Part shown: in pieces, positions 1-24,360 of the stretch
Layout: every line of letters starts with the position of its first letter
Numbering within the stretch: the first letter of the stretch is position 1
NCBI GenBank assembly: GCA_031284225.1
Contig: JAITAH010000371.1
Coordinates: 1 to 32,199 of the forward strand
DNA length: 32,199 nucleotides
Reading direction: 5' to 3'
DNA from: Dysgonamonadaceae bacterium
GTDB lineage: Bacteria > Bacteroidota > Bacteroidia > Bacteroidales > Azobacteroidaceae
Translations under genes and position numbers: made by a program
The notes under the pieces: model-generated
The model's input: only the letters and a program-made list of their open reading frames with translations
The model's database searches: none
Told to the model about the DNA's origin: nothing

Positions 1-778
1 AAGCATACTGAAAAAATTCGTTCGCTTTATCCGGAGCAATACCGGCAAAACCTTTGTCGTAAGCTTCCTCGCCTTGAAACCCCAGATACTGGGTATATTT
101 GGCAATACAGCCGGCATACAGCATGGTACGCGACATTAAAGCGGCCGCCGTGTATTTGTTGGCGCGACCCGGATATTTTTTACCGGGATCATCCGTCATA
201 TTATCCATGGCAAACTGAAGGTCTTCCTGAATAAATTTCCATGAATCATATTCCGTCGCCCGGGGCGGTTGCAACGTTTCCAGCGGCTCTGTCGGATCTT
301 GCACTTCCGTTACAAGGGGGATTCCTCCGTAACGTTTAACGATACCGAAATAAAAGAAAGCACGAAGAAAGCGAGCTTCGCCCAACAAATTGTTATAGGC
401 GGCCACCGTATAGTTGTCTTTGTATTTCGGGAAATTTACAATAAACGTATTTACTTCGCGGATACGATCGTAAGGCCAATAGCTTGTTCCATTGTTCTGG
501 ACTTTCGTCCAGGTATTTACAAGTTCGTCGCAGGATTGTCCCAAAGAATTTTTGTAAGACTCCCAATAGTTTCCGGCACGATAGCCGCTATTGGCATAAT
601 AGTTGAAATCTTCTATGGGTAAATACATATAAAGGCGAGTAAAATATTTCTGCACACCGTATTCGTTACCGAATATTTCTGCTTCACCCAACTGTCCTTT
701 AGGCTCCAACGACAGGTCATGACAAGCCGCAACGGTAAAGCCTAAAATAACTGCGAATATTATCTGTTGTATTTTCAT
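1..778 (-). CDS. SusD-like glycan-binding outer-membrane lipoprotein (partial, C-terminus outside window)
   Basis: The frame is open from the ATG at 776-778 to the left edge, giving the first 259 residues; SusD proteins usually have about 500-600, so roughly half is missing. The N-terminus is a lipoprotein signal with lipobox TVAAC (lipidated Cys19), followed by the typical start CHDLSLEPKGQLGEAEIF. Further in are SusD-like segments such as NNLLGEARFLRAFFYFGIVK and KYTAAALMSRTMLYAG, which match the family's TPR-like helices. In this family the protein sits on the cell surface, binds oligosaccharides and acts as a lid over its SusC partner. The start lies 11 bases after the stop of the SusC gene, so the two are one operon. 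The family call is secure; the ligand cannot be deduced. Confidence 0.93.
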   Translation of the reverse strand, partial: MKIQQIIFAVILGFTVAACHDLSLEPKGQLGEAEIFGNEYGVQKYFTRLYMYLPIEDFNYYANSGYRAGNYWESYKNSLGQSCDELVNTWTKVQNNGTSYWPYDRIREVNTFIVNFPKYKDNYTVAAYNNLLGEARFLRAFFYFGIVKRYGGIPLVTEVQDPTEPLETLQPPRATEYDSWKFIQEDLQFAMDNMTDDPGKKYPGRANKYTAAALMSRTMLYAGCIAKYTQYLGFQGEEAYDKGFAGIAPDKANEFFQYA

Positions 779-789
779 AATTGTTTTTT

Positions 790-3700
790 TTAAAATTTAA
801 TGTTTATACCAACGGTGTACGTCTTATTTACAGGATAGCTATAAAAGTCGATATAATCCGACGAAGCGCCACCCGACGATCCGGGACGTTCGGGGTCTAT
901 TCCGTGCAGTCCGGAGAATGTCAAGAGGTTATATCCGTTCACATACAATCTTAAATTCTTAATACCTGCCTTGGACATCCATTTTTTAGGCAAAGTATAG
1001 CCGAGTTCCAATGTCTTCAGACGCAAATAGGAAGTATTGTTTACGTTGTTAGAAGCCTGCCTGCGTCCATCATGACCGGTAATAGGATAATATCCCTCCA
1101 CCCATTGCGTGCGGGAATCGAAAATATCCGCTTCGGGATCAACAGGATGCCATCGGTCCATAAACCAGGATAAGGTATTAGCGCCTCCAAACGATAAAGC
1201 TTCCACTAATACTTCGCCATACGCGGCATAAATCCCGTATGCGCCTTGAAAGTTTGCCGCCAAGTCCAGATTTCTCCAGCTTGCTCCCATATTGATACCA
1301 TAATTGAATACCGGCAATCCGTAAGTGGCATACGGATGATTGTCGTCGTCATTAACTATCCCATCGCCGTTCCAGTCTTCGCCCCACCAGTCGCCCGGCA
1401 CGGTACCCTGACCTTGCGGTAGATAGAAGTTGCGGATTTCATCGTATGAAGTAAACATGCCTCCCATCTGTCTTGTCCACCAAATATCGGTATAACGATT
1501 TGCACTACGATTTCGCCACTTGTCCATAGAGTTATTGGCCGGAGTTTCCAGCCAGTCGAGACGCATGTGCTTGGTGGCTGAAATCTGACTGCTGACATAA
1601 TAATTCAACTCCCGCCATCTGTTTTGATATTTTAACTCTACTTCCCAACCGAAATGTCGGTCGCTATTCAAATTTTCTTGCGGTAAAGAAGCGCCTACCG
1701 TACCGGGAACAACCGCCGAGCTTGTAGCGAGCAATCCTTTCCGGTCTCGTTTCCATAGCTCGAACGTACCGCTCAGGCTGTTTTTCAAAACTCCGAAATC
1801 CAACGCCAGATTATACATCTCGGTGGTGTACCAGGTCAGTTTTGAATTGGCGATACCCGGTATGTTATAACTTGTATTTATGCCATTCGCGCCATGAGTC
1901 AGTCCGGACGGTTCAAAAATCCACGCTCGATTGGAGTTTCCGCTATAAAAAACATAGGTAGAAGGATAATTACTTGCCGAACTATCATCTCCCATTTTTC
2001 CATAAGAAGCTCTTATTTTCAGGTTGGAAATAAAATCTAATTTATTTTTTATGAAACCTTCCTCACTGAGGCGCCATGCAAGCTGAAACGAGGGAAAGAA
2101 TCCCCAACGACTGCCCACGGGAAATTTAGAAGACCCATCGTAACGAAACAGGAACGTTCCCATGTATTTGCCGGCATAATCATAAGCAATGTTACCGATA
2201 AACGCTTGATTCAACCGTTCGCCCGGCGTTCCGCCGCCCCCTTTTTGGTTGGTTTCTTCACCGACGGAGATGTATTCGCTGTTAACCATTATTTCTCGCG
2301 AAGCATTGAAACCGCCGTCCCAAAAATTATACGCTTCTTCGAATAATAAAGTTCCGTTAACGTTATGTTCTCCGAACCGATTTTGATAATACAATCCCAA
2401 CTGCATATCGGTATCGTAGTTAAAACTTGTACTGCGGCTCGCACTGGCCGGAGAACCTTTGACTATTTCACTGTAATTGTCGGAAGCCGGATCGTATGAA
2501 AATAAACTATAGGTTTTACTGAAATTCTGACTGTCGGGAAGACTGAAATTATAGTCATACATCGCCTTTGCCGATAAACCCTTGATTTTTGGAACGTCGT
2601 ATGTCAAGGTCAACGAACCGTTCATCCTGCGTTGATGGGAAAGATTATAACCAACATATTGCTTTTGTGTCTGGATAACCGGGTTATTTCCATCCTGCAA
2701 CACATTTACATCTCCATTGGGATACAATGGGTTGTCGTTTGCATAAACCGAAGCTGTGGGTTTCATCAACCAGGCATATTTATACAGCGACCAGTCGCTA
2801 CGAGGATTCTGAGTCGTGTTCAAAATAGCGCCCAATGAAATACGGGCTTTTAAGCGGTTGGTAATCCGCGCATCGATGTTTGAACGCATATTCCACCGAT
2901 CTCCCCACATATCGTCGCTTTTCAACGAACCGTCCTGTTTTGAATAAGCAAGGCTGAAAAAATATCTCAGTCTATCGTTTCCGCCATTCACGCTGAGGTT
3001 GTGCTGTTGTTGCGGAGTCGTTTTTTTAAATACCTCATTTATCCAGTTATACGATTTCTTAGTTCCGTCAAGATAGGGTTGATATTGATCTTGAGTATAA
3101 CGCGCGTTACGATGAATCAGGTAGTTACCGCTGAAATCCTGCCAGTTTTGCTCGTTTATCAAATCCATCCATTCGGTAGCAGATATACCTTCCGGAACGT
3201 AAAGAAATTGTTGTGCGGTAAAATTACTGCTATAAGTAATATCTACCTTACCATTTTGAGAAGTACCGCTTTTTGTCGTAACAAGCAAAACACCGTTTGC
3301 CGCCCGCAAACCATAAATAGCCGCCGTACCATCTTTCAATATAGAGACGCTTTCGATTTCTTCCGGATCCATACGGGAGAAATAAGCCTGGTCGCGAGGG
3401 ACGCCGTCAATAACAAATAGCGGCGTGCCTAAACCTCGAATGTCGATTACCGTATTGTACGCGCCCGGTTGCGAAGTCTTTTGAGTAATACGAAGACCCG
3501 GTAATTTACCGGCCAAAGCATTAACAACGTTTTCGTTCTTGGTAACCACAATGTCTTTGCTGGATACCGTTGAAACAGAACCCGTCAAAGTTGATTTCTT
3601 CTGAGTCAAATAACCGGTACTAACAACTACTTCCTCTAAAACTTCCTCATTTATTTCCAGATGGACGTCGAAGGTCGTTTTGTTTCCAATGTTTACTTTT

Positions 3701-3972
3701 TGGGGAATATAGCCCAAATAAGTAATCGTAAGGGTTTCATTTGGCGAGGCTTCCAAAGAAAACTCGCCATTAACGCTTGTCGCTGTTCCCCGCTGAGTGC
3801 CGGTAACAGTAACAGATGCGCCAATAATCGGCTCGTTAGTAGAAGCATCGGATACTACGCCTTTGATTGTTTTTGTTTGCGCAAATCCCGATACTGCCAT
3901 CCCAAAACAGATAACTACGGTGAAAAATGCCCGCATTATCCTACTTTTTTCTTTCAATCTGTTTTTTTTCAT
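790..3972 (-). CDS. SusC/RagA-family TonB-dependent outer-membrane transporter
   Basis: A 1060-residue protein, the usual length for SusC. A signal peptide covers about residues 1-32 and ends VSGFAQ; MRAFF at residue 13 is a possible shorter start. Residues about 34-115 form the carboxypeptidase-D-like regulatory domain (KTIKGVVSDASTNEPIIGAS). The TonB plug follows at about 120-235, including VVSTGYLTQKKSTLTGSVS, PGLRI, TPLFVIDGVP and the SILKDGTAAIYGLRAANGVL segment typical of SusC. The rest is a large beta-barrel ending in TVGINIKF. Family knowledge: it imports oligosaccharides across the outer membrane using TonB energy, in complex with SusD. It is followed by the susD-like gene and preceded, across a 192-base gap, by the GH92 gene on the same strand. 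I see no convincing promoter box in that gap. Confidence 0.97.
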   Translation of the reverse strand: MKKNRLKEKSRIMRAFFTVVICFGMAVSGFAQTKTIKGVVSDASTNEPIIGASVTVTGTQRGTATSVNGEFSLEASPNETLTITYLGYIPQKVNIGNKTTFDVHLEINEEVLEEVVVSTGYLTQKKSTLTGSVSTVSSKDIVVTKNENVVNALAGKLPGLRITQKTSQPGAYNTVIDIRGLGTPLFVIDGVPRDQAYFSRMDPEEIESVSILKDGTAAIYGLRAANGVLLVTTKSGTSQNGKVDITYSSNFTAQQFLYVPEGISATEWMDLINEQNWQDFSGNYLIHRNARYTQDQYQPYLDGTKKSYNWINEVFKKTTPQQQHNLSVNGGNDRLRYFFSLAYSKQDGSLKSDDMWGDRWNMRSNIDARITNRLKARISLGAILNTTQNPRSDWSLYKYAWLMKPTASVYANDNPLYPNGDVNVLQDGNNPVIQTQKQYVGYNLSHQRRMNGSLTLTYDVPKIKGLSAKAMYDYNFSLPDSQNFSKTYSLFSYDPASDNYSEIVKGSPASASRSTSFNYDTDMQLGLYYQNRFGEHNVNGTLLFEEAYNFWDGGFNASREIMVNSEYISVGEETNQKGGGGTPGERLNQAFIGNIAYDYAGKYMGTFLFRYDGSSKFPVGSRWGFFPSFQLAWRLSEEGFIKNKLDFISNLKIRASYGKMGDDSSASNYPSTYVFYSGNSNRAWIFEPSGLTHGANGINTSYNIPGIANSKLTWYTTEMYNLALDFGVLKNSLSGTFELWKRDRKGLLATSSAVVPGTVGASLPQENLNSDRHFGWEVELKYQNRWRELNYYVSSQISATKHMRLDWLETPANNSMDKWRNRSANRYTDIWWTRQMGGMFTSYDEIRNFYLPQGQGTVPGDWWGEDWNGDGIVNDDDNHPYATYGLPVFNYGINMGASWRNLDLAANFQGAYGIYAAYGEVLVEALSFGGANTLSWFMDRWHPVDPEADIFDSRTQWVEGYYPITGHDGRRQASNNVNNTSYLRLKTLELGYTLPKKWMSKAGIKNLRLYVNGYNLLTFSGLHGIDPERPGSSGGASSDYIDFYSYPVNKTYTVGINIKF

Positions 3973-4162: not shown

Positions 4163-4185
4163 CGTCATTGCGAACCGAGCGAAGC
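4163..4185 (+). repeat. Copy of a dispersed GTCATTGC...GAAGC repeat overlapping the GH92 stop codon
   Basis: The plus strand reads CGTCATTGCGAACCGAGCG and then AAGC. The same core (CGTCATTGC followed by CGAAGC) occurs inside the inverted repeat at 24375-24521, and its reverse complement closes that element. On the minus strand this copy encodes the final GH92 residues ASLGSQ and the TGA stop (4165-4167). Similar short palindromic repeats are common in intergenic DNA of Bacteroidota. That it inserted into the gene end is inference. Confidence 0.5.
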
Positions 4186-6471
4186 CATGGTCTCCGAAGA
4201 AGGGGGTACATTTTCAAGAGCGCTACCCCATTTCTCATTGGCCTTGTCGCCCATTACTAATACTAATTTTCCACCCTTGGCAATATCTTCATGGCTGAAC
4301 CAAGGTTTGTTCCATTCAACGCCATTCAAGACGGCCGATTGAATATATTTGTTTTCGTCGGAACAGTTTTTTGCTTCAATTTCAAACGTTTTCCCGTTCC
4401 CCAATCTTATTTTGACCGTGCTGAACAGCGGACTTCCAATGTTGTAGGTCGGCGATCCGGGAGTAACCGGATAAAATCCCATGGCCGAGAATACGACAAA
4501 TGCCGACAGGCCTCCCCCGTCTTCATCCCCCGGAACGCCCATCAAATCGTTGCGGAACCATTGTTTTAGCAACATACGGATGCGCTTTTGTGTTTTCCAA
4601 GGTTGTCCGGCATAATTATACAGATAGGGAATATGCAGCGAAGGTTCGTTAGCCATTGAAAACTGACCCACATTTCCGGTTTGATCGGGAAGTTGTGAAT
4701 AAAAAGAAGATTTTCCCCGTCCTAAAGGTTCGCGGAACGTTTGATCCAGATTTTTCACAAAATTATCTGCCGAACCCATTAAGGCAATCAAATCGCCGGG
4801 ATTGTGGGGAACGTCCCACCGGTAAGTCCAGGCATTATTTTCATCGTAATAATCTCTTGCGCCTGCTCCGCCCGAAAACTTGTAATCGAAAGGAACGATA
4901 AAGTTTTCTTTCATATCTTTCGGGTGGAAAAAAGCCGTTTCGGAATTGAATAAATTACGGTAATTGTAGGATTGTTTCAGAAAATAACGATAATCCTCTT
5001 CCTTTCCCAATTGACGGGCAATTTGAGCAATGCACCAGTCGTCGTAACAAGTTCCGAGCGTTACAGCCACCGATTGGCGTTTTTCAAAACTATTTACCTC
5101 GGCAATGTATTCCTTTTCTCCTTCTTTCAACGACGGATAAAATCCTTTTTCGCGATAAAAAATGTCCAACTCCGTATTGGGAACCTTACGCCACGGGAGA
5201 AGCGATTTCTCGGTCAACGCCGCTTTACAGGCTTGGTATGCAGCTTCCAGATCGAAGTCTTTCAATCCTTTGCTGTATGCTCCCAAAATCACGGAAACGG
5301 CGTGATTACCGTTCATACGGTGAGAATCGCCGGTAATTTCCGGGAAAGTCGGCATCCATCCGTCTTCGCTCTGTTGCGCCATACGGATATAGGAACGTAT
5401 CATATTCACTTCCTGTTCCGGCTCTATCAACACCCGCAATGGATGGGCTGCGCGATAAGTATCCCAAATCCAATCGTCGGTATAAAAAGGTCTGCCTTCG
5501 TCGCTGTGAACCTGCCCGTCGGTAGCGCTATAATAATTACCGTCTTCGGAGATGTTAATCATTCGCTCGTAAATCCGGTAAAGCGAAGTGTAAAAAATAG
5601 ATTTATCGTTTTCGCTACCGCCATCTACCAGAATCTTACCCAGAGACTCATTCCATTGGTCGCGTCCGGCTTTGGCCACTGCGTCGATGCTGTAAGTTTT
5701 TATTTCCCGTTGCAGGTTTTTGCGGGCTTGCTCGCTACTTATAAACGAGATACCATAACGAACATGGATTTGTTTTTCCTTAAAATCCATGACCAGAGAA
5801 CTATTCCGGCCTTTGGCCGTATTTTGCGTATAATCAATAGTTCGATTCAATCGTCCGACGCCGGCGGGTTTTTGTTCGGTTTCAAGATAAAGATAAACTT
5901 TTGTCGGTCCCCTGCCAATCAGTTGATAACCGGAAATCGCATTCCCGTTTGCCTCCAATTCTCCATTCCGAGTATTAATAATCAAACGATTATTTTCATT
6001 TTCAAATGAGAAGCCATAAACTCCCGATTGGTGCGAGGGGGCATAATCGACTGTAATTTTTGCTTCATCCAAATAAACCGAATATCGGTATGGTTTGATT
6101 TTTTCGTTATCGTACGAATAATTGATAACCGTTCCCAATTCTGCCTTTTCCTGAGAAACCGGGCTGATATTGAAAGCCGTACTCCCCCGATGGCTCGTAA
6201 CGACAACCGGTAATCCCCGAAGTAAATCCGAAGTAAAATCGTCCCGTTCGGGATACACTCGAAGCATACTGTTCGGTAAATGAATGGTAGGATAAGTCGG
6301 CACCAATAAATGGCTAATATTTCCCATATACGGATTAATATAATCTACCGGAGTTTTTACCGCCGTTCTTGCTCCGCAATGACAGGAACTAATCAGAACA
6401 ATATATATTAAGGAAATAGAAAGTATCCAACCTTGTAGCGTGAATCCTGTTTTTTTATTTGCATGAACCAT
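4165..6471 (-). CDS. GH92-family alpha-mannosidase-like lipoprotein
   Basis: Glycoside hydrolase family 92, whose members are calcium-dependent, inverting exo-alpha-mannosidases. The start used here gives 768 residues. The frame is open further upstream (to 6537), but a TAnnTTTG box at 6512-6519 would start transcription after that codon. The start at 6471 gives a 30-residue lipoprotein signal ending in lipobox LISSC. Family segments include VDYINPYMGN near the N-terminus, DDWIWDTYRAAHPL, the NEP motif in SMANEPSLHIPYLYNYAGQP (the family's general-acid region) and PGDEDGGGLSAFVVFSAMGF (carrying the paired Asp of the family's base). Odd: the last eight codons and the stop lie in a dispersed repeat (4163-4185). 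The gene lies between an exported hypothetical protein and SusC/SusD. Activity on mannosides is a family inference; the linkage is unknown. Confidence 0.92.
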   Translation of the reverse strand: MVHANKKTGFTLQGWILSISLIYIVLISSCHCGARTAVKTPVDYINPYMGNISHLLVPTYPTIHLPNSMLRVYPERDDFTSDLLRGLPVVVTSHRGSTAFNISPVSQEKAELGTVINYSYDNEKIKPYRYSVYLDEAKITVDYAPSHQSGVYGFSFENENNRLIINTRNGELEANGNAISGYQLIGRGPTKVYLYLETEQKPAGVGRLNRTIDYTQNTAKGRNSSLVMDFKEKQIHVRYGISFISSEQARKNLQREIKTYSIDAVAKAGRDQWNESLGKILVDGGSENDKSIFYTSLYRIYERMINISEDGNYYSATDGQVHSDEGRPFYTDDWIWDTYRAAHPLRVLIEPEQEVNMIRSYIRMAQQSEDGWMPTFPEITGDSHRMNGNHAVSVILGAYSKGLKDFDLEAAYQACKAALTEKSLLPWRKVPNTELDIFYREKGFYPSLKEGEKEYIAEVNSFEKRQSVAVTLGTCYDDWCIAQIARQLGKEEDYRYFLKQSYNYRNLFNSETAFFHPKDMKENFIVPFDYKFSGGAGARDYYDENNAWTYRWDVPHNPGDLIALMGSADNFVKNLDQTFREPLGRGKSSFYSQLPDQTGNVGQFSMANEPSLHIPYLYNYAGQPWKTQKRIRMLLKQWFRNDLMGVPGDEDGGGLSAFVVFSAMGFYPVTPGSPTYNIGSPLFSTVKIRLGNGKTFEIEAKNCSDENKYIQSAVLNGVEWNKPWFSHEDIAKGGKLVLVMGDKANEKWGSALENVPPSSETMASLGSQ

Positions 6472-6511
6472 ATTTTTTATGCACTTAAAGTTATACATGT
6501 GTTTTTCGAGG

Positions 6512-6519
6512 CAAAAATA
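6512..6519 (-). promoter_or_regulatory. Candidate -7 promoter box for the GH92 gene
   Basis: The minus strand reads TATTTTTG, a match to the Bacteroidota -7 consensus TAnnTTTG. A TTG lies 15 bases upstream, closer than the usual -33 spacing. Transcription would begin near 6506, leaving about 35 bases before the ATG at 6471 and ruling out the upstream in-frame ATG at 6537. Confidence 0.4.
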
Positions 6520-6571
6520 ACCGCGTGGATTTAACAATTATCTTAATAAAAATATTAATTTTCCAAAAAAA

Positions 6572-7237
6572 TTACTGAAGCGAGCAAGAATAATGAACAA
6601 TTGCCTTCACATCTTCAATCGCATTAAAATTTGTTTTATTTTCTTTTGAATATGCTTCAATCTCCGCTTGATGAGATTTGAAAAGTTTTATTAAACTCTT
6701 CAACGAATTGATTTTTTCAAATTTTTTCCCATTTTTGACGAACACAGACGATTCGTCAACACCTTCTATCTTTTCTTCAGGACCTAACAAATACAAATTT
6801 CCGCTGTTATTTGTAACTACCAATCCGCTTACCGAAGCCGTTTGGGAATAACCTCCGTAACCGGAGGCTTTCCCTTTGGAGAGAACTCTGGTTTTATGAT
6901 TAATATAATACTCCTTATTTCCGGTTTCAATCCGTTCATAAAAAGCGTGGTTTCCGACGGGGAAGAATGAACGTTCTCCGATGACCACCATCGTAACGGC
7001 AGTTGCATCAAGTTCATTCACAACATCTTCTGTATCGATGTATAATATTCTTTCTTCCGTCAAATCGTAGTTGAGTTGTGCCGATAAACGGGCGTTTCCC
7101 TCTTTCAGTATGACATATCCTTTTTCAAATTGTGAAAAAAGAAACATTTTCACAGAATCGCCATCATCTGCTTTCGCACCGACAAACGAGATTGCGAAGA
7201 GGAATGAAGTAGAAATAAAAATCAATATTTTTCTCAT
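6572..7237 (-). CDS. Exported protein of unknown function (221 aa)
   Basis: I do not recognise the family. An N-terminal Sec signal peptide is clear (MRKILIFISTSFLFAISFVG, cleavage probably after GAKA at about residue 23), with no lipobox, so the product is likely periplasmic. The mature part begins with strand-like segments (KGYVILKEGNARLSAQLNYD, ILYIDTEDV). A central Gly/Ser/Tyr-rich stretch (KASGYGGYSQTASVSG) follows, then a lysine-rich helical C-terminus ending HYSCSLQ. It lies 122 bases after the stop of the LamG/kelch-SARP regulator and before GH92 on the same strand, with its own -7 box at 7278-7285. That position suggests a role linked to the regulator or glycan use, but no function can be assigned. 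Confidence 0.8.
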   Translation of the reverse strand: MRKILIFISTSFLFAISFVGAKADDGDSVKMFLFSQFEKGYVILKEGNARLSAQLNYDLTEERILYIDTEDVVNELDATAVTMVVIGERSFFPVGNHAFYERIETGNKEYYINHKTRVLSKGKASGYGGYSQTASVSGLVVTNNSGNLYLLGPEEKIEGVDESSVFVKNGKKFEKINSLKSLIKLFKSHQAEIEAYSKENKTNFNAIEDVKAIVHYSCSLQ

Positions 7238-7277: not shown

Positions 7278-7285
7278 CAAAATTA
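7278..7285 (-). promoter_or_regulatory. Candidate -7 promoter box for the 221-aa exported protein
   Basis: The minus strand reads TAATTTTG, a full match to TAnnTTTG, about 40 bases before the ATG at 7237. No good -33 TTTG is visible; TTTC lies 16 bases upstream. It implies the gene can be transcribed apart from the regulator. Confidence 0.45.
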
Positions 7286-7359
7286 ATTAACCTTTATTAA
7301 TGAAAGTCCTAATAAAAGGCTTAATAGAAGGAAAGAAATGTAAGAATTTTGCTCGAAAC

Positions 7360-9939
7360 TCAAGAAATTATTTGTTCGAACGAATAATTGTAATTTACTC
7401 TAAGTAAAATTTGGTAATGTTTCACAAAAGAGTCATAGGTTGTTTTAGCTAAGCCGTTTTTTCCCATTTTAACCAATGCTTTGCATTTGAGTTTCAATGC
7501 GTCGTCGTTTAACGTATCATGGATTAACAATGTGTCTGCCAAATAAATAAGTTCGGCAGGTGAAAAAACAGGTTCATTCTGTTCGCTGATATTGGTCAGT
7601 AAATCAATCAGTTCGTTTGTAAAATTCGATTTAAAAATATCCACCCATTCGATTTGCACATTCGGTAACAGCTCGCCGAACGACACAATATTCAGCAACT
7701 TCATTATTTCGTCCTTGTTCCATCTGTTTTTTCTCTTTATCCCTTGTATTAACCGGAGCGCCTCACGATAGTCGCAATAGATTTCATCGCCCAACTTTAC
7801 CACCCAATACGAATTAAAACTTTCAATATTTATGGCGCCAACATTTTCGAATACTTGGCGTATTTTAGACATCATTACCGAACGATTGTTTTTGGCGCTG
7901 TCATGGGTTTTATCCGGCCATAAAGTATCTTCGAGTTTCACGGACGAGATTCCTTTGCCTTCTTCTTTAAGGGTGTTCAATAGAATTATCAGGAATAATT
8001 GCTTCGATATAGGCGAAAATTCGCCGGTAACATCATTGCCGTTTTTGTCTTTTACCTGAAAGCCTCCAAAAAGGAAAATAGCCTGTTCTTTCTTCCGTTC
8101 GTTAATTTGCTTGACTTCTTTAAGTTCTTTGTCGAGCAGTTTATTAAAATGATCGTTATCTATCTCATTATTAATTTTTTTCTTCTTTCGTAAAAATCGG
8201 TAAGCAATCATTGCTACAATCAGCAACAAAACAGATATTCCGATTTTTAAGGAATTCATACTGCTTTCATTATCAACTAATTGATTTATATATGTTTCAG
8301 AAACAGGCGGATAAGACAGCCTATAAATAGACGCCGACGATAATGAATCGGTAGGCAAAGACGAATAAGTAATGGCATATAACTCTCCGGTTTCCTGATT
8401 TTGAAATAAATCGGCGTAAGATAATATATCGTTGAAATAAAAAGGAATACTGTTTGAAACTATCTCATATTCAGGTTTTTGCAAAGAAAATTTTGTGAGA
8501 AAAAGCGAAGTTTCATACTGATTTTGCGGAAAACAGAGGGCATAAAAACAGTTATTAATGGTATCCACTATCATGGAATTTGAGACAACAAAATGATTGA
8601 CAGACGGTTTTATCTCCCAAAGTTTGCTTACGCTTAAATCGGGCAGATTTACTTGATATAAATCGTAATAATTTTGAGGTGATAAAAACTGCAAACCGCT
8701 GTTACTTCCATAGCCTCCAAAAAGGATAATTCGTTTTTCATCAATAACCCCCAATCCACTTAAATAGCGCGGAGCGATGGTCGATTTCTCGTTGTTATGG
8801 TATTGTAAACGTTCCCATTTTCCGGTTTCAAAAGAATATTTATTAACAATATTTTTATATTTATGCTGTCCGTATCCTCCGAATAAATACAAGCAATTTT
8901 CTTTCCGCGAAACAAACCGGTTATGATGCCAGTATTCATCGCCAAATTCTCTTATATTGGTATTACTCCATGATTTATTTTTAAAATCGTATGCCGCTAT
9001 ATCCCGGGGTTCCATATTATAGAAACAATAGGAGTAGTAAGTACTATCCAATGGATTATAAATCATCTGATTGGGTCCTCTGCTATGAATAAATCCGGAT
9101 GTATTCGGGGTATTGTCCAGTTTGTGAGTATTCAGGTTGTAAATATAAAAATTCTTTCTGTCGGCAACCGCAATCGTTTTTTCATCGGGATTGTACGCAA
9201 TTTGAGGATTTATTAAAGTCTTAAAACTGATTTCTTTATTCCAAAAAGCATGATCGTCTAACAGCCATTGGGGGTTTTCGACTTTAGCAAACGAATTTTT
9301 CAGTTCGTCATAAACGCCGCCTTTGGCGTGTTTGGATAGTTTCCAATAGTAAATCGCATCGCCCCTGACATTGTGGATACGAATATCTTTGATGATTATT
9401 TTTGGAACGTCGCTCGTTTGAAACAGAGGATAATCGCATCGCCCGAAAATAATGTTTACATTCTTGAAATCTTTTAATGATGAAACCACGGGAGAAAATG
9501 TCTTTTCCCCGATGGCGATATTCAATAAATTATTTTTTATATCCAATTGTATGGAAAAGGGCAAAGGATAAAATGCGGAAAAATTATTGCTTGTTTCCGA
9601 TAATGAACATTCAACCAAGACCTGATCTTCAGAATATACTACATTTATTTTATCCGGATCAATTAAAAAGTCTATGTGATGACCATTCTCTCCGATAATG
9701 CGAAAAATATATCCAAAATTATATTCGGGCGCAGATTGAAAAAGCACATTGAAAGACAACGAGAAACCATTGGAAAATGCAAAAGCCTTCGAAGGCGACA
9801 AGTTTAAACTTGTCCGCTTTTCTTGCACTACTTCAAACGAACTAAATTCAAGCCCGTATCTCAAATTTTGTGCAATAACAGATAGCGTATTAATTATCAA
9901 AAGACAAAAAACGATCTTTATTTTAAATGTGTCTTTCAT
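7360..9939 (-). CDS. Membrane-spanning one-protein regulator: LamG-like and kelch-like sensor with cytoplasmic SARP-type winged helix
   Basis: An 859-residue protein. Residues 1-24 are a signal sequence ending SVIAQ. About 25-200 looks like a LamG/concanavalin-type jelly roll (GFSLSFNVLF, KIIIKDIRIHN). About 240-555 is a beta-propeller-like region with two clear kelch motifs (NCLYLFGGYG and KRIILFGGYG). A single membrane helix spans about 562-582 (IGISVLLLIVAMIAYRFL, then RKKKK, positive inside), followed by a charged linker. From about 616 comes a winged helix of the OmpR/SARP type (AIFLFGGFQVKDKNG, PISKQLFLIILL, LEDTLWPD, NRSVMMSKIRQVFENVG). The last 140 residues are helical, like a BTAD/TPR domain. 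I infer that it senses a ligand in the periplasm and binds DNA directly, without kinase or receiver domains. No other regulator is seen in the locus, so it probably controls the flanking enzymes. Its promoter is almost leaderless. Confidence 0.85.
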   Translation of the reverse strand: MKDTFKIKIVFCLLIINTLSVIAQNLRYGLEFSSFEVVQEKRTSLNLSPSKAFAFSNGFSLSFNVLFQSAPEYNFGYIFRIIGENGHHIDFLIDPDKINVVYSEDQVLVECSLSETSNNFSAFYPLPFSIQLDIKNNLLNIAIGEKTFSPVVSSLKDFKNVNIIFGRCDYPLFQTSDVPKIIIKDIRIHNVRGDAIYYWKLSKHAKGGVYDELKNSFAKVENPQWLLDDHAFWNKEISFKTLINPQIAYNPDEKTIAVADRKNFYIYNLNTHKLDNTPNTSGFIHSRGPNQMIYNPLDSTYYSYCFYNMEPRDIAAYDFKNKSWSNTNIREFGDEYWHHNRFVSRKENCLYLFGGYGQHKYKNIVNKYSFETGKWERLQYHNNEKSTIAPRYLSGLGVIDEKRIILFGGYGSNSGLQFLSPQNYYDLYQVNLPDLSVSKLWEIKPSVNHFVVSNSMIVDTINNCFYALCFPQNQYETSLFLTKFSLQKPEYEIVSNSIPFYFNDILSYADLFQNQETGELYAITYSSLPTDSLSSASIYRLSYPPVSETYINQLVDNESSMNSLKIGISVLLLIVAMIAYRFLRKKKKINNEIDNDHFNKLLDKELKEVKQINERKKEQAIFLFGGFQVKDKNGNDVTGEFSPISKQLFLIILLNTLKEEGKGISSVKLEDTLWPDKTHDSAKNNRSVMMSKIRQVFENVGAINIESFNSYWVVKLGDEIYCDYREALRLIQGIKRKNRWNKDEIMKLLNIVSFGELLPNVQIEWVDIFKSNFTNELIDLLTNISEQNEPVFSPAELIYLADTLLIHDTLNDDALKLKCKALVKMGKNGLAKTTYDSFVKHYQILLRVNYNYSFEQIIS

Positions 9940-14313: not shown

Positions 14314-14432
14314 TATTAATTGGAATTTTCAACAAATAATCCTGATTTCCTCCGGCAAAACATTATTTGCCTGACATTTACTGCTCGTTATATGTTTAAC
14401 CGGACGTTTGTGATTTTTATTTTTTAATACTG

Positions 14433-14440
14433 CAAAGTTA
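14433..14440 (-). promoter_or_regulatory. Candidate -7 box for the GH95/GH35 operon
   Basis: The minus strand reads TAACTTTG, a full TAnnTTTG match about 120 bases upstream of the ATG at 14313. No correctly spaced -33 TTTG is visible. It lies in the 295-base divergent region, which is otherwise AT-rich and contains no gene. The leader would be about 115 bases. Confidence 0.45.
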
Positions 14441-14510
14441 AAATTATCACAAAACGAATGGCTTAAAAAATCAATTAATAAATTTTTTTTTTGTATTAAG
14501 TCTGATATTA

Positions 14511-14542
14511 ATTGTTTTGTTAATAACAGGCGGTTAAGTTTG
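14511..14542 (+). promoter_or_regulatory. Promoter for the plus-strand enzyme operon
   Basis: TAAGTTTG (14535-14542) matches TAnnTTTG, and ATTG (14511-14514) sits 20 bases upstream, the usual -33 spacing. The ATG of the GH43-ceramidase fusion is 66 bases downstream. Together with the box at 14433-14440 it forms a divergent promoter pair, a natural site for one shared regulator. Confidence 0.5.
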
Positions 14543-14608
14543 TACGTCTATCTGAATAATTTTTCATCGTGAAAATTCATTAATTGTTATTCTTAATTTT
14601 TCAATAAT

Positions 14609-16801
14609 ATGAAACAAATCGTTTTTTTCTTGTTTTTTGTGTCTTCTGCCGTATTCGGACAGAACAATCCGTTCATTAAACATATTTATACGGCAGATCC
14701 TTCGGCGCATGTTTGGTCGGATGGCAGACTGTATGTTTATGCTTCTCACGACATTGATCCGCCGCGCGGTTGCGACCTGATGGATGAATATCATGTTTTT
14801 TCAACCAGCGATATGGTTAATTGGGTTGATCATGGCGAAATCTTGCGTGCCAGCCAAGTTCCCTGGGGCGAACCGCTCAGAAATAACGCCAAACTCATGT
14901 GGGCGCCCGACTGCGCATACAAAAACGGTAAATACTATTTCTATTTTCCGCATCCGAACAAAGATCCCTGGGGTAGAAACTGGAAAATCGGAGTTGCCGT
15001 AAGCGATAAACCCGCTTCAGGATTCAAAGTACTTGATCATCCGATGCTCGGACTGCCCGAAAGCGGCCAGATCGACCCTTGCGTATTTGTGGATACCGAC
15101 GGTAAAGCCTACTTTTATTACGGCGGCGGCGGCAAATGTTTCGGCGCCAGGATGAAAGACAATATGTACGAAATCGACGGGGAACTGATACAGATGGAAG
15201 GCCTGGTAGATTTTCACGAAGCGACTTGGGTACATAAAAGGAACGGGATTTATTATCTTTCCTATTCCGACAATCACGACGAGGGGAATGATAAGGAAGG
15301 CGTCGCCGGCGATAACCGGATGAGGTATGCCACCAGCAAAAGTCCCCTGGGACCTTGGGAATATAAGGGAATCTACATGGATCCGACCGACAGCTATACC
15401 AATCACGGTTCTATCGTGGAATATAAGGGTCAATGGTATGCTTTTTACCATAACAGCGAACTATCGAAGCAAAACGGCAAATTCAACGACTGGACACGTT
15501 CCGTCTGCGTCGATAAACTGTATTACAATCCCGACGGTACCATCAAAAAAGTAAATCAAACCGACGGCCGGTTAAAAGCGGGCACGGCAAAGATAGACAT
15601 TTCGCCAACCAACCTCGCCAATAACCGTACCGTTCACGATCCGCTGTATGCGCGAAGTTTGATTTTGCAAATACAGGATACCCGTATCGCTTTTCTCTCA
15701 CTCGATTTGGGAGGATACACCAATCCGGCGCTGCTCAACAAGCTCAAAAAAGATTATGATTTGGACGAACTGTATTTCTGCCCTTCGCACACCCATTCGG
15801 GAGCGACCGACCGGAATACTATCGAAGAAAAACTGACGGCCATCATCCAAGAAGCGTCCGACAATCTGTTCGAAGCCAAATTATCGGGAGGAAACCGCCC
15901 TACCCCGCAATTGACGTTCAACCGGCTGATTATCCGCGACGATGGCCATGCTCGCGAAGCCTGGTACGCCGATCCGGAAGAGCATTTCCGCTACCTGAAC
16001 AAGGAACGGATTCCGTTCGGACCGGTTGATCCCTCTGTCGGAGTAATCCGCATTGACGACGCCAAGGGCAATCCTCGTGTCCTGATCATGAATTTTGCCT
16101 GCCATCCGGACGCTCTGGTAGATGTGCGATCCGTAGTTTCGGCAGATTACGTAGGCTATGCCACAAAATATGTCGAAAACGCTTTCGACAACAAGATAAA
16201 TTGCCTGTTTGTACAAGGCGGAGCCGGTAACCAGTGCTCGCTCTTCAAAACGCCCACCGACGGATCCGAACCTGAAAAGTTTTTCGATATGGTCGGACGA
16301 ATGGGAAAACTGCTTGGCATAGAAGCCGTCGCATTAGCAAAAGAACTCTATCCCAATCCTCATGAAAAACCAGGTATCCTGTTGAAAACCGACTCATTAG
16401 ATTTACCCAGCCGTTTCGAAAAAGATGTAGCAAGAATCCATTTTTCAACCATCCTGATCAATGATAAATACGCAATTGCCACTTTCCCCGGCGAACCGTT
16501 CATTAAATTCCAACTCGACTGGAAACGGGAAATAGGTCCTTACGCTGTGCCTTTCTTCTTCGGTTATGCCTGGAACGGCGGTCAATGGCCAACCTATGTA
16601 CCCGACGTCCGCTCGGCGGCTTTAGGCGGTTATGGAGCCGACTGGGGACCGGTTCGCGCGCCGGGTGGAGGCGAAGCCGTTATGACAAAACATTTGAATA
16701 ACTATTACGTAATCAAAGACCTTATGCGCACGACACAAGGTCCCGGCGATCATCGTCTCGACGACGGTACCATTATTTGGAAACCCGATTGGCAAAAATA
16801 A
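14609..16801 (+). CDS. Fusion of a GH43 glycoside hydrolase and a neutral ceramidase-like amidohydrolase
   Basis: A 730-residue protein with a signal peptide (1-18, ending VFGQ). Residues about 19-318 are a five-bladed GH43 propeller. The three family acids are visible: base Asp30 ([10 protein letters not shown]), pKa-modulating Asp156 ([11 protein letters not shown]) and general acid Glu204 (FHEATW). GH43 enzymes act on arabinose-, xylose- or galactose-type links. From about 322 (LKAGTAKIDISP) the protein is neutral/alkaline ceramidase-like. His394/His396 lie in PSHTHSGA, His499 in NFACHPDAL and Glu629 in FPGEPF, matching the zinc-ligand motifs of that family; GGAGNQCS (Ser544) corresponds to the nucleophile loop. 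Neutral ceramidases cleave the N-acyl bond of ceramide, but the substrate here is unknown. It is the first gene of the plus-strand operon. The GH43 part is paralogous to that of the gene at 20995. Confidence 0.87.
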   Translation: MKQIVFFLFFVSSAVFGQNNPFIKHIYTADPSAHVWSDGRLYVYASHDIDPPRGCDLMDEYHVFSTSDMVNWVDHGEILRASQVPWGEPLRNNAKLMWAPDCAYKNGKYYFYFPHPNKDPWGRNWKIGVAVSDKPASGFKVLDHPMLGLPESGQIDPCVFVDTDGKAYFYYGGGGKCFGARMKDNMYEIDGELIQMEGLVDFHEATWVHKRNGIYYLSYSDNHDEGNDKEGVAGDNRMRYATSKSPLGPWEYKGIYMDPTDSYTNHGSIVEYKGQWYAFYHNSELSKQNGKFNDWTRSVCVDKLYYNPDGTIKKVNQTDGRLKAGTAKIDISPTNLANNRTVHDPLYARSLILQIQDTRIAFLSLDLGGYTNPALLNKLKKDYDLDELYFCPSHTHSGATDRNTIEEKLTAIIQEASDNLFEAKLSGGNRPTPQLTFNRLIIRDDGHAREAWYADPEEHFRYLNKERIPFGPVDPSVGVIRIDDAKGNPRVLIMNFACHPDALVDVRSVVSADYVGYATKYVENAFDNKINCLFVQGGAGNQCSLFKTPTDGSEPEKFFDMVGRMGKLLGIEAVALAKELYPNPHEKPGILLKTDSLDLPSRFEKDVARIHFSTILINDKYAIATFPGEPFIKFQLDWKREIGPYAVPFFFGYAWNGGQWPTYVPDVRSAALGGYGADWGPVRAPGGGEAVMTKHLNNYYVIKDLMRTTQGPGDHRLDDGTIIWKPDWQK

Positions 16802-16832
16802 TTAAAATTTAATAATAAATAATTCTACAAAA

Positions 16833-18146
16833 ATGAAAACAGCAAAGATAATTTTTTCGATAATGGTCTTCTTTCTGGCATCCGCTCCGGCAATAGCCCA
16901 AAGAAACGTAACCATCAAACCTTTCCCCGAATCGCCCGACGTGGTTTCCGTTCTGGATTTCGGAGCCAAAGGCGACGGAAAAACCGACGATACGCAAGCC
17001 TTCCAAAAAGCGCTTGATTCTTTTGGAACACAAGGGGGAACCGTTTATGCTCCCAGAGGAACTTACTATTTCAAAGGAAGCCTGAACCTGCCGCAAGCGG
17101 TTACGCTGAAAGGCGCATTTGAATCGGTTCCTTCTCACAACGGTATCCGTAATGCCGGTTTGCCGAAACCGGGCGACGATGGCACTACCTTCTTAGTAAC
17201 CGGAGGACAGGGCAACGAACAGGCTACTCCTTTCATCACGCTTAATACAAACAGTACTTTACGCGGGGTTTTAATGTACTGGCCTACGCAAGATCCCGAA
17301 AAAGTTCCCGAAGCTTTTCCCTGGGCAATTGCTATGAGAGGAAAAAATCCGGCTGTACTTGATGTTGAATTACTTAATCCCTACAATGCTATCGACGCTT
17401 CAAAAAACGAGCGCGCCTTGATTCGCAATATCACCGGACAACCGCTGAGACGGGGCATCTTCGTCGATGGAATTTACGACATCGGCCGCATCGAAAACGT
17501 ACACTGGAATCCTTGGTGGAGTATGAAACCCGCCTTGTTCAACTGGCAAAAAGAAAACGGCGAAGCATTTATTTTTGAACGTACCGACTGGCATTATGTA
17601 CTGAATACTTTTTGCTACGGCTACAAAGTGGGCTACAAATTCGGAGCAAGTTCCGGAGGTACGGGAGCTTGTAACGGTAATTTCCTCGGTATCGGAGCCG
17701 ACGCCTGCCACAATTCGATTTTGGTTGAACAAAGCGCCTCTTTCGGGCTTCTCATTACTAACGGCGAATTTGTTGCAATGAACGGCGAAGACCCGACCAT
17801 GGTGGTTGTAACAAACTTTAACCGCGGAAATGTTCGCTTTGTAAATTGCGCTTTCTGGGGGCCTTGCAATCAGAACGCCAAAATTGACGGCCGCGGAACC
17901 GTTGGATTCTCCGACTGTATTTTCGTTCAATGGGACAGGAACAAAGAAAACAGGGCAGCTATTCAGGCTGTCGGAGGCTCTCTGCTCGTTCGCGGATGCG
18001 ACTTCGGAAGCTTGGCGCCCCAGGTTTCTATCGGGGAAAATGTTCAAAAAGCTATTGTTTCGGAAAACACAATGCGCGGTAAGGTAATTATCGACAACAA
18101 AGGTAAAAACACTTACATACAGGGGAACCTCGGAACGGAGCAATAA
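16833..18146 (+). CDS. Secreted right-handed beta-helix protein (pectate lyase superfamily type)
   Basis: A 437-residue protein with a signal peptide (about 1-22, ending PAIAQ). It then shows the hallmark start of the pectate_lyase_3 / parallel beta-helix superfamily, VSVLDFGAKGDGKTDDTQAF, followed by GGTVYAPRGTYYFKGSLNLP. Repeated beta-helix-like turns continue (RGNVRFVNCAFWGPCNQ, VGFSDCIFVQWDR, GSLLVRGCDFG). Relatives include polysaccharide lyases, rhamnogalacturonan- or polygalacturonan-acting enzymes and non-catalytic tailspike-like folds, so the reaction cannot be fixed. No classic GH28 catalytic Asp set is obvious. It lies 31 bases after the GH43-ceramidase gene, consistent with one transcript. 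It is probably periplasmic or surface-exposed and acts on a chain fragment of the same glycan. Confidence 0.82.
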   Translation: MKTAKIIFSIMVFFLASAPAIAQRNVTIKPFPESPDVVSVLDFGAKGDGKTDDTQAFQKALDSFGTQGGTVYAPRGTYYFKGSLNLPQAVTLKGAFESVPSHNGIRNAGLPKPGDDGTTFLVTGGQGNEQATPFITLNTNSTLRGVLMYWPTQDPEKVPEAFPWAIAMRGKNPAVLDVELLNPYNAIDASKNERALIRNITGQPLRRGIFVDGIYDIGRIENVHWNPWWSMKPALFNWQKENGEAFIFERTDWHYVLNTFCYGYKVGYKFGASSGGTGACNGNFLGIGADACHNSILVEQSASFGLLITNGEFVAMNGEDPTMVVVTNFNRGNVRFVNCAFWGPCNQNAKIDGRGTVGFSDCIFVQWDRNKENRAAIQAVGGSLLVRGCDFGSLAPQVSIGENVQKAIVSENTMRGKVIIDNKGKNTYIQGNLGTEQ

Positions 18147-18244
18147 ACGCTCCCCAACGACCGTTATGTTATTGCGATTGGATAATTTACACAAATTTAA
18201 CTCAACACGAATAAACAATACCATAATTAATTAATTATTTATTT

Positions 18245-19459
18245 ATGAACAGATTACTTTTATTATCAACTCTTGTGTTTCTATGCGTCAATGCAAGCGC
18301 CCAGAAATACGATTCGTATAAAGGCCTGGTTATGGCAGGTTATCAAGGCTGGTTCAGTTGTCCCGGCGACGGTTCCGACCGCGGCTGGTATCACTACTGC
18401 GGACGGGACGGTTTATTCCAACCTGGAATCTGTACCATCGACATGTGGCCCGACGTTTCGGAATACCCGAAAACCTATAAAACCGCATTTACATTCGCCG
18501 ACGGAAGTCCTGCCTACGTGATGAGCGAATACGATGAATCGACGGTAGCAACTCATTTCCGCTGGATGAAGGAATATGGTATCGACGGCGTTTTTGTACA
18601 ACGTTTTGTGGCCGAAATCAAACGTCCTCAAAGTTACAATCAACTGAACAAGGTGTGGCAATCGGCCATCGGCGCCGCAAATGCTAACGGCCGCGCCATC
18701 AGCATCATGTACGACCTCAGCGGTATGGTTCCGGGCGATGAACAGTTAGTCCTCAGCGACATAGACGCTATCGCCGCTAAATATGACCTCCGGGAGCGAA
18801 AAAAGAATCCGTCTTACCTTCATCATAACGGTAAACCTTTGGTTGCCGTTTGGGGCGTCGGATTCAACGACCGCCGCCGGTATGGTTTCAAGGAAGCGGA
18901 AATCATCATTGATGCGCTCATCCAACGGGGATTCAGCATCCTCATCGGCGTTCCGACCTATTGGCGCGAGTTTGGCAACGATACAATGAACGATCCCGAA
19001 CTACATCGCCTCATCAAAAAATGTGACATCGTTATGCCTTGGTTCGTAGGACGTTACAACGAAGAAGGTTTCCCGCCTTTTGAAAAATTGGTGAAAGACG
19101 ATATTGCCTGGTGCAAGACAAACAAGGTCGATTATGCGCCGCTGGCTTTCCCTGGTTTTTCGTGGGTAAACATGAATAAAAATTCCCGTCCGATTCCTCG
19201 CAATCGCGGCAGTTTCTATTGGAGGCAACTATCGAGCCACATTGCCAATGGAGCAGAAATGATTTATTTGGCCATGTTTGATGAAATCGACGAAGGAACT
19301 GCCATTTTCAAATGTGCAACCAACGTTCCCGTCGGCGAAAGTTTTTTCCTGCCTCTCGATGCGGATTTAGGAAACGATTATTATCTTTTCCTGGCAGGCT
19401 CGGCCGGTAAAATACTGAAAAAGGAATTGCCGCTGACGACAACTGTTCCGACAAGATAA
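18245..19459 (+). CDS. GH71/GH99-like glycoside hydrolase
   Basis: A 404-residue protein with a signal peptide (1-20, ending NASAQ). It begins YDSYKGLVMAGYQGWFSCPG and contains VATHFRWMKEYGIDGVFVQR, ISIMYDLSGM and KPLVAVWGVGF, as in proteins annotated GH71/99-like. Near the C-terminus the motif MFDEIDEGTAIFK places Glu347 and Glu350 three residues apart. That is the spacing of the two catalytic glutamates in GH99 endo-alpha-mannosidases; the equivalence is my inference. GH99 acts inside alpha-mannosides, and GH71 on alpha-1,3-glucan. Endo-mannosidase activity would fit the GH92 gene in the same locus. It follows the beta-helix gene after a 98-base AT-rich gap with no obvious promoter and is 19 bases upstream of the tandem hydrolase gene. 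Confidence 0.84.
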   Translation: MNRLLLLSTLVFLCVNASAQKYDSYKGLVMAGYQGWFSCPGDGSDRGWYHYCGRDGLFQPGICTIDMWPDVSEYPKTYKTAFTFADGSPAYVMSEYDESTVATHFRWMKEYGIDGVFVQRFVAEIKRPQSYNQLNKVWQSAIGAANANGRAISIMYDLSGMVPGDEQLVLSDIDAIAAKYDLRERKKNPSYLHHNGKPLVAVWGVGFNDRRRYGFKEAEIIIDALIQRGFSILIGVPTYWREFGNDTMNDPELHRLIKKCDIVMPWFVGRYNEEGFPPFEKLVKDDIAWCKTNKVDYAPLAFPGFSWVNMNKNSRPIPRNRGSFYWRQLSSHIANGAEMIYLAMFDEIDEGTAIFKCATNVPVGESFFLPLDADLGNDYYLFLAGSAGKILKKELPLTTTVPTR

Positions 19460-19478
19460 CATAAAAAAAATCAGTATC

Positions 19479-20993
19479 ATGAATTTATTATTTCAAAAAA
19501 ATCTGAATACCTGGGGAAAACGGTTTTTGGTTTTCCTGTCTATCATCCTTTTCGCCGGATTTTCAAGCCATGCGCAATCATTTACCGGAGAAAAAACATC
19601 GTGGCACGGTTTCGATCGTTACGATTTTGTCATTAACGAAAAAACGCTGCAAATCAAGCCGGTAAAAGCGACGCAACGCGAAGGTAACGGCGTAGCTAAT
19701 CCTGAAAAAGGAACCAGACGCTGCATTATAGTTGTTCCGAAACAGGCTGCGAAAGGAAATCCCTGGTCGTGGCGCGGTTGCTATTGGGATCATCAGCCTC
19801 AGGCCGAAATAGAACTCCTGAAAAGGGGATTCCATATTGCTTTCATCACTACCGATCCCGATGAAACATGGGACGTCTGGTACAAGTTCCTGACCGAAGA
19901 ACACGGTCTATCGCCCCGCCCGGCATTCATCGGCATGAGTCGGGGCGGCGCCAATGCTTTCACCTGGGGAACCGGTCATCCCGACAAAGTTTCAGCCATC
20001 TGTGCCGACAATCCGGGTCTTTCACAAAAAAGTTTGATGAGCATGGATTTACTTGCGGCAAATGATGTTCCCCTCTTGAATATCTGCGGAAGCATCGACC
20101 CGATACTGAACAATACTTATTCCATACAAGGCATTTACCACGGAAACGGAGGACGCATGTCGGTTCTTATCAAAGACGGTTCGGCGCACCATCCTCACAG
20201 CCTGCAAAATCCCAATGTTATTGCCGATTTTATTGAGCAAAGTTTTAAGGAAACTCCAGCGGAAAAACCGGCTTTTGTACCCGAAAGATTCAAACGCACT
20301 CATTTTTACAGCACAACGCCGCGTTATGCCTATGCCAAGGACGAAAAATTATGGATTACATCGTGGGGACCCTATTTCACAGGAAACTACCAGAGGTACG
20401 CCTTTTCGCTGCAAGGCGTGGAAGGCTCCGTTACGGTCATTACGCCCCAACAGGCAGCCCAAGGCAATCCGTGGATTTTCCGTTGCCAGCAACAGGACGG
20501 CCATTCGGCAGTCGATTTGGAACTTCTGGCACGCGGATTCCATATCGTGGTAGCGCCCGTACCTTACAATGCAGACGGGCCTCTGTTCAACCAATGGACC
20601 AGTGTTTATAACTATTTGACGGAAAAAGGATTTTCACAAAAACCGATCCTGGCAGGAAGCGGAGCCGCCACCGGAGAAGTCTATGCCTGGGCTATTGAAA
20701 ACCCTGATAAAGTTTCGGGAATTTACGGCGAAAATCCCATTCTGCGGTCGTCGCTTGCAAAAATTCAACCTTTGGATAATCTGAAACCGCTGGCTACCGC
20801 GAAAATACCTATACTGCACGCTTGCGGAAGCCTCGATCCGAATCTCAAATCGCAAACAAACGAAGTAAAAAAACGCTATTCGGGAAAAATGACCGTTATT
20901 CTTGATGCGGGAAGAGCGCATTACCCGATGGAACCGAACGACCCGCAAAAAATAGCAGGATTGATTGAAAATATGATAAATAATTCCAGATAA
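19479..20993 (+). CDS. Tandem alpha/beta hydrolase; second domain lacks the catalytic serine
   Basis: A 504-residue protein with a signal peptide (about 1-33, ending SSHAQ). It consists of two homologous halves (about 34-260 and 270-504). Shared landmarks are KGNPWSWR versus [19 protein letters not shown] versus [20 protein letters not shown] versus [16 protein letters not shown] versus CGSLDPN and DGSAHHPHS versus [10 protein letters not shown]. Half 1 has the nucleophile elbow GMSRGG with Ser154. In half 2 the aligned stretch is GSGAATG, putting Gly395 where Ser should be, while the Asp and His loops remain. So half 1 is probably an active esterase-like enzyme and half 2 a pseudo-enzyme or binding domain. 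One base separates its stop from the next ATG, indicating translational coupling. Deacylation of glycans is plausible but not shown. Confidence 0.85.
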
Positions 20994-20994
20994 A

Positions 20995-23900: not shown

Positions 23901-24360
23901 AGACGACGGCACCGGTTGGGGACTCGCCTGGAAAATCAATATGTGGAACCGGCTTCACGACGGCGATCACGCCTACCAGTTGCTTTCTGTCCTGCTTAGC
24001 CGCAAAACCTTGCCGAATTTGTTCGACGACCACCCGCCTTTCCAGATCGACGGAAACTTCGGCGCCACGGCCGCCATCGCCGAAATGCTCTTGCAAAGTC
24101 AGTTACAGACTCGCGACGGCCGGTTCGAAATCCAGTTGCTTCCTGCATTGCCGGCGGCTTTTGCATCGGGTTCGGTTAAAGGATTGCGCGCCCGGGGCGG
24201 TTATGAAATCAATATCGACTGGAAAGACGGAAAATTAGTTTCTGCCGAAATAAAGAACATTAACGGGAAAAAATCGCTTCCCGTCCGCTATAAAAACTCG
24301 GTAAAAACCGTTTCCGTTTTGCCCGGAGCATCCGTCCTGATTCCGGCGGAAGCGTTCTGA
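20995..24360 (+). CDS. Two-enzyme fusion: GH43 plus GH95 (alpha-L-fucosidase-type)
   Basis: A 1121-residue protein with a signal peptide (1-21, ending CIAQ). Residues about 22-303 are GH43, with Asp33 ([10 protein letters not shown]), Asp155 ([10 protein letters not shown]) and Glu203 (FHEAAW) as the three expected acids. After a short linker, about 338-1121 is a complete GH95 enzyme. It begins [20 protein letters not shown] and has [20 protein letters not shown], the Asn pair in [12 protein letters not shown], general acid Glu922 (RILEWAEDY), [14 protein letters not shown] and Asp1019 (FQIDGNFG). GH95 removes alpha-L-fucose or L-galactose; GH43 usually removes arabinose- or xylose-type residues. 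The fusion suggests both sugars lie close together on the substrate. The GH43 half is a close paralog of that at 14609 (53 of the first 69 mature residues identical). It is the last gene of the operon. Confidence 0.93.

Follow-up and report, generated by a model that had tools for sequence, protein, structure and literature searches.

The window, i.e. the whole stretch of 32,199 nucleotides analysed here, carries on its minus strand a gene (7360..9939, stop codon included) for an 859-residue protein, which we refer to as the regulator. Downstream of it on the same strand lies a run of four genes, opened by one for a 221-aa exported protein that matches no Pfam family at E ≤ 1e-5 (6572..7237) and continuing with a GH92 gene (4165..6537), a SusC-type TonB receptor (790..3972) and a SusD gene that is incomplete at the window edge (2..778). 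A gene 74% identical to the 221-aa gene adjoins a regulator fragment, on its downstream side, in another locus of our collection (L027). The plus strand carries a second run (14609..24360) that encodes GH43, pectate-lyase-like, weakly GH99-like and weakly alpha/beta-hydrolase-like proteins and a GH43-GH95 fusion, the last with both domains in one polypeptide (20995-24360). In the first gene of this run (14609-16801), GH43 is followed by a stretch that matches the neutral ceramidase N-terminal domain just above the cut-off.

From its N-terminus, the regulator comprises a signal peptide (residues 1-24; 9868..9939), predicted from a hydrophobic stretch at residues 4-27 and ending in ...VIAQ at a presumed cleavage site; a jelly-roll-like domain (25-228; 9256..9867); a kelch propeller (229-547; 8299..9255); a membrane helix (557-584; 8188..8271); a linker (585-611; 8107..8187); and a SARP module made of a winged helix (612-716; 7792..8106) and a BTAD-like helical part (717-859; 7363..7791), all encoded on the minus strand. 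An earlier note on this DNA had read the same architecture from the letters alone, and this reading holds in the Pfam matches, the AlphaFold2 model and the structure comparisons. The model, computed from an alignment of 97 sequences (the query and 96 of 120 listed homologues), has a mean pLDDT of 87.3 and consists of a beta-rich part (about residues 30-221), a propeller (234-541), a long helix (557-584) and the C-terminal module; between the helix and this module, residues 586-608 are poorly ordered (pLDDT below 50). The kelch assignment comes from both directions, with Pfam placing kelch repeats between residues 261 and 443 and structure comparison recovering the propeller fold. The jelly-roll-like assignment is weaker, with the domain model taken only from the whole-protein fold and Laminin_G_3 matching at E ≤ 1 in 5 of 63 members (a set drawn from 85 references). 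A PDB sequence search with the N-terminal profile gave zero matches; hhalign relates the domain to kelch-less siblings of the regulator at a probability of 91.8% (four sequences). The proposal that it corresponds to the LamG domain of other sibling regulators found no support, the hhalign probability being 3.9%.

Every one of the 97 members of the alignment has a hydrophobic membrane stretch, which agrees with the single helix that the earlier note had placed at about residues 562-582; net positive charge is higher behind this stretch than ahead of it in 94/97, and an N-terminal hydrophobic stretch occurs in 80/97 by a threshold that we set ourselves. The charge bias together with the two hydrophobic stretches predicts that the sensor lies outside and the C-terminus inside. 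A single membrane helix would hence stand between the sensor and the DNA-binding domain, and Pfam at E ≤ 1 finds no kinase or receiver domain in the regulator, as had been claimed before. The label that the gene carries in the source, 'two-component SAPR family response regulator', fails for the same reason, and an NCBIfam search returned no family for the protein.

The C-terminal module was placed by structure comparison because a PDB search with its sequence profile was uninformative, yielding one unrelated match at E 1.3. In the predicted fold, an OmpR-type winged helix is followed by a BTAD helical domain, the order that defines the SARP fold, and the module as a whole matches AfsR and EmbR; the winged helix that had been expected past residue 616 is thus found by structure, with the BTAD-like part behind it. 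At the sequence level, the BTAD profile matches 13 of 68 members at E ≤ 1 (a set drawn from 87 references). When the eight contact residues of AfsR are mapped without gaps from a shared Trp, W is kept in 68/68 members, R94 is present as R or K in 68/68 and S91 is kept in 39/68, while five of the eight are not kept as such in these 68 members.

A genome scan retained 79 loci out of 192 stretches encoding relatives. These loci come mostly from metagenome-assembled genomes of Bacteroidales, including Azobacteroides, Symbiothrix and Tannerella types, which we take to be termite-gut lineages, and the family also occurs in Pedobacter, Mucilaginibacter, Dyadobacter, Fulvivirga and Agaribacillus. Of 395 genomes drawn evenly across the phylum, at least 11 have a family match at E ≤ 1e-30, a lower bound since at most two candidates were scored per genome; one genome carries seven copies of the regulator. 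Two variants deserve mention. In one locus (L150, genome G147), a family member is split over two adjacent open frames of 349 and 364 aa, counted from the start codon of each, one holding the kelch part and the other the SARP part; the copy is broken, or else the family exists here as two genes. In another (P0122, locus L152), a 465-aa beta-helix protein has a membrane helix and a C-terminal winged-helix part only, without BTAD, and has three relatives among the matches listed.

The earlier note had expected homologues of the regulator to sit beside SusC/SusD genes, which they do more often than control genes but not in every case. SusC or SusD lies in the flank of 44/79 loci, many flanks ending at contig ends. 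To quantify the association, we used 57 random control windows from the same contigs, which represent only 15 genomes, whereas the 89 regulator loci come from more; gene starts and neighbours were assigned by a simple longest-ORF script. Within 6 kb, SusD accompanies 15 of 25 regulators (15 genomes) against 13/57 random windows (p 0.002), and SusC or SusD accompanies 17/25 against 22/57 (p 0.017). Immediate neighbours give the sharper test: SusC, recognized by its TonB plug domain, was found in 29/154 positions (22/78 downstream and 7/76 upstream neighbours) against 2/109 control neighbours (p 8.5e-6), a contrast that weakens to p 0.035 if the control count sums SusC-type and SusD domains (10/109). 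Left out of the neighbour counts were L062 (1/79 downstream) and two each of L147 and L148 (4/113 control). GH92 is the neighbour twice downstream and six times upstream (2/109 in controls); further neighbours are GH2 (4), GH3 (4), GH99 (2 and 4) and sulfatases (5). The link between regulator and glycan genes is therefore strong yet not universal, because 8/25 regulators (15 genomes) have neither SusC nor SusD inside 6 kb.

We scanned for short direct repeats upstream of SusC genes that adjoin a regulator (28 regions, then 27 with spacings of 7-35). Here and in the counts of TTAA pairs, upstream regions shorter than 60 bp were left out, and shuffled sequences keep dinucleotides, with a fallback to single bases on failure. 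Spacings of 11 and 12 stand out, with 115 and 93 repeats against about 28 and 27 in shuffled sequences; 9, 10 and 21 are not raised and 22 is mildly so. Other SusC genes likewise show a raised period 11 in their upstream regions (94 vs 33 shuffled), as do control genes (435 vs 206), where 7, 8, 9, 14 and 21 are raised as well and period 12 is little raised (276 vs 203). The core of the repeats is TTAA, usually with A before and T after, the core itself having been imposed by the search. Of the 27 SusC regions, 19 contain a TTAA pair at spacing 11 and 11 contain one at spacing 12 (shuffled 2.2 and 2.5); for the 355 control regions the numbers are 28 and 10 (shuffled 15.1 and 13.8). A pair at 11 or 12 bp precedes 38/47 codirectional downstream neighbours of the regulator, compared with 35/355 control genes, as well as 22/35 divergent upstream neighbours and, shared divergent regions included, the regulator itself in 30/79. 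The remaining 14 position classes in regulator loci have TTAA pairs in 0-38% of their regions (eleven classes at 17% or less), non-adjacent SusC genes in regulator loci in 11/22, and SusC genes in control windows in 4/14. These TTAA arrays are probably the operator of the regulator, to which they are tied by position, because they concentrate in promoters beside its gene, and not by sequence alone.

Where a promoter element follows, the arrays also tend to keep a fixed distance to it. Leaving out regions shorter than 90 bp (including 30 bp of gene), 64/82 neighbour regions have an array and 18/82 have none; TAnnTTTG follows the array in 23 of the 64 and is not found after it in the other 41, and in 17/23 the last TTAA starts exactly 15 bp ahead of this element. 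According to passages of PMC7366714, the primary sigma factor of Bacteroides has TAnnTTTG at -7 as its reported consensus. When both strands of whole loci are scanned for a composite of repeat pair, gap and TAnnTTTG, the 15-bp distance is found at 30 sites, spread over 26 of the 89 regulator loci (1.43 Mb for all 89), and at a single site in the 57 control windows (0.83 Mb). Other distances in regulator loci give 2 sites at 14 bp, 5 at 16 and 0-4 at most others, apart from a second peak of 11 sites at 26 bp, which fits one repeat further upstream. Of the 37 composites at 14-16 bp, 21 point towards the neighbour gene of the regulator and 10 towards other genes; for the remaining 6, the locus contains no gene in that direction. 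Passages of PMC10936776 describe SARP operators with repeats 11 or 22 bp apart, the 3' repeat lying 8 bp from the -10 element; a heptamer that starts at TTAA leaves 8 bp to TAnnTTTG, the same distance. In their sequence, with repeats at 11-12 bp and the last beginning 15 bp before the element, the arrays thus have the layout of a SARP operator.

The window itself contains three composites at 14-16 bp, all at 15 (7278-7312 and 6512-6546 on the minus strand, 14508-14542 on the plus strand), and a third repeat upstream extends each to a predicted operator and promoter. The first (7278..7324, minus), upstream of the 221-aa gene, has TTAA, TTAG and TTAA in 12-bp steps, the last repeat beginning 15 bp ahead of TAATTTTG; the second (6512..6558, minus), ahead of the GH92 gene, has three TTAA repeats and TATTTTTG; and the third (14496..14542, plus), ahead of the GH43/GH95 run, has three TTAA repeats in 12-bp steps and TAAGTTTG. 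The strict form with three TTAA has two matches in the window and 0 in 100 shuffles. The 221-aa gene, the GH92 gene and the plus-strand run are accordingly listed as predicted targets. Since the listed TTG start of GH92 falls within the second operator, its true start is probably the ATG at 6498 or 6471. The 195 bp that precede SusC contain no TTAA array, and neither do the 249 bp that precede the regulator.

Taking the architecture, topology, SARP-like fold, neighbour association, repeats and phasing computed here together, we consider it likely that the regulator is a one-component activator of the inner membrane that acts through its SARP module on neighbouring operons by way of the TTAA arrays. 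We infer that it binds these repeats and activates transcription from them, and that it does so in response to a ligand, be it a sugar, a SusC/SusD partner or another molecule. The jelly-roll and kelch domains would lie in the periplasm, one helix would cross the inner membrane, and the winged helix and BTAD part would contact DNA inside. A glycan fragment imported by SusC/SusD, or a partner protein that reports the fragment, would bind the periplasmic part and alter how the SARP modules pair, so that two or three of them could sit side by side on direct repeats 11-12 bp apart; with the repeats ending 15 bp ahead of the -7 element, the bound modules would recruit RNA polymerase. The targets would be the neighbouring operons and, in the window, the promoters of the 221-aa gene, of GH92 (with SusC and SusD behind it) and of the GH43/GH95 run. 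The earlier note had inferred direct signal transfer from periplasmic sugar binding to DNA: for direct action on DNA, phased repeats of SARP type beside the regulator, also in the divergent region 14314-14608 that it had singled out and that holds the third operator, speak in favour, while the ligand and the activation are what we propose on top of it.

It is possible, at a tentative estimate, that the periplasmic part senses a protein such as SusC/SusD or the 221-aa protein and not a sugar: kelch propellers often bind peptides, the best fold matches of this propeller are, by the titles of their structures, LZTR1 with RAS proteins and KLHDC2 with degrons, both with protein ligands, and SusC is often the next gene, whereas sugar-binding jelly rolls and glycan-degrading neighbours suit a glycan ligand. 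A different route, in which signalling cleaves the regulator and a soluble SARP fragment acts, we regard as unlikely. Soluble SARP proteins need no membrane for their action, and the poorly ordered residues 586-608 would lie just where such a cut is called for; yet no protease gene is seen repeatedly in the list of the 25 most frequent neighbour families, and SusR is described, in passages of PMC11216935 and PMC10936149, as spanning the membrane.

How specific the arrays are bears on whether they belong to the regulator. In 25 genomes with the family, the two-repeat composite is matched 71 times and its reversed pattern 39 times. The strict three-repeat form has 35 matches, in 30 of 390 genomes of the phylum, and 14 when reversed; three of these 30 genomes (G001, G251, G400) are among the 11 that carry a family match. 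At the genome-wide scale, the pattern shows weak specificity and modest enrichment. By our reading, 18 of the 35 strict matches contain TTAACA, whose repeats look to us like PhoB-type boxes. Such TTAACA repeats, in 11-bp steps and 15 bp from TAnnTTTG, are also seen in genomes without a family match, at most two candidates having been scored per genome, and activators in Bacteroidota may generally sit at this 15-bp distance. Proteins of the OmpR fold, PhoB-type regulators among them, also use direct repeats near 11 bp. With this shared geometry, the PhoB-like matches at the same promoter distance and period 11 raised upstream of control genes, the arrays could belong to another regulator, of PhoB-type or otherwise of the OmpR family, the membrane protein acting elsewhere or not on DNA. 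We hold this to be quite improbable, as the arrays concentrate at promoters adjoining the regulator gene, the 15-bp composite occurs 30 times in the regulator loci and once in the control windows, and no other regulator recurs beside the family among the listed Pfam families (LacI 4/78; response regulators 2/78 and 2/76). Two LamG-type siblings (L090 and L091) have neither TTAA/TTAG triples nor 14-16 bp composites in 20 kb each, which limits the operator evidence to the kelch subfamily and not the whole superfamily. That the regulator represses instead is very improbable, for the repeats stop 15 bp short of the -7 element, where SARP activators sit according to passages of PMC10936776.

Which regulator reads which glycan is a main gap in predicting the diet of Bacteroidota. 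With a membrane-bound SARP activator of this kind, the sensor, the membrane passage, the DNA module and a nearby operator can all be read from the sequence, which makes the glycan question testable locus by locus. On balance we favour the view that Bacteroidota possess a further class of regulators of glycan loci, namely SARP activators tethered to the membrane whose beta-rich sensors can be exchanged (jelly roll with kelch, jelly roll without it, LamG, perhaps also beta-helix). In this class, the code of the kelch subfamily, with TTAA repeats spaced by 11-12 bp and stopping 15 bp short of TAnnTTTG, would give the adjacent targets.

Regulators of the ToxR/CadC type have a winged helix inside, a sensor outside and one membrane helix between them. 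The earlier note had likened the regulator to these, and the principle fits, but the layout differs: the order is opposite, with the sensor here N-terminal and the DNA module C-terminal, and the latter, with its BTAD part, resembles a whole SARP domain more than an isolated OmpR winged helix. SusR of Bacteroides thetaiotaomicron is the nearer functional precedent by its description; in passages of PMC11216935 and PMC10936149, it is a single regulator spanning the inner membrane that couples periplasmic sensing to control of Sus genes, as ours would, so that direct control of a Sus operon from membrane to DNA is not new as a principle. Its motifs differ, since in passages of PMC3878776 the predicted sites of SusR-like regulators are 67 or 77 bp apart, against 11-12 bp here. 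The same passages recognize three types of regulators in Bacteroidetes (SusR-like, HTCS, and ECF sigma/anti-sigma), of which the HTCS control polysaccharide loci, have a large periplasmic sensor as here and use motifs with a long spacer, but contain a kinase and a response regulator, whereas Pfam finds no such domain in our regulator. The words SARP, kelch and one-component are absent from the main text of PMC3878776, and our search of the open-access literature, outside which most subscription papers fall, found no glycan-locus regulator that combines SARP with kelch or LamG; the SARP module, the make-up of the sensor and the operator code appear to be new. With the SARP regulators AfsR of Streptomyces and EmbR of Mycobacterium, the regulator shares the predicted fold of the whole module, direct repeats about one helical turn apart and an equal distance to the promoter element. 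Unlike theirs, its repeats have a TTAA core and a spacing of 11 or 12 bp, and its module occupies the C-terminus, preceded by a periplasmic sensor and a membrane helix, where AfsR and EmbR are fused to NOD-TPR and FHA domains (passages of PMC10936776). An activator fold familiar from soluble actinobacterial regulators appears here within a transmembrane sensor.
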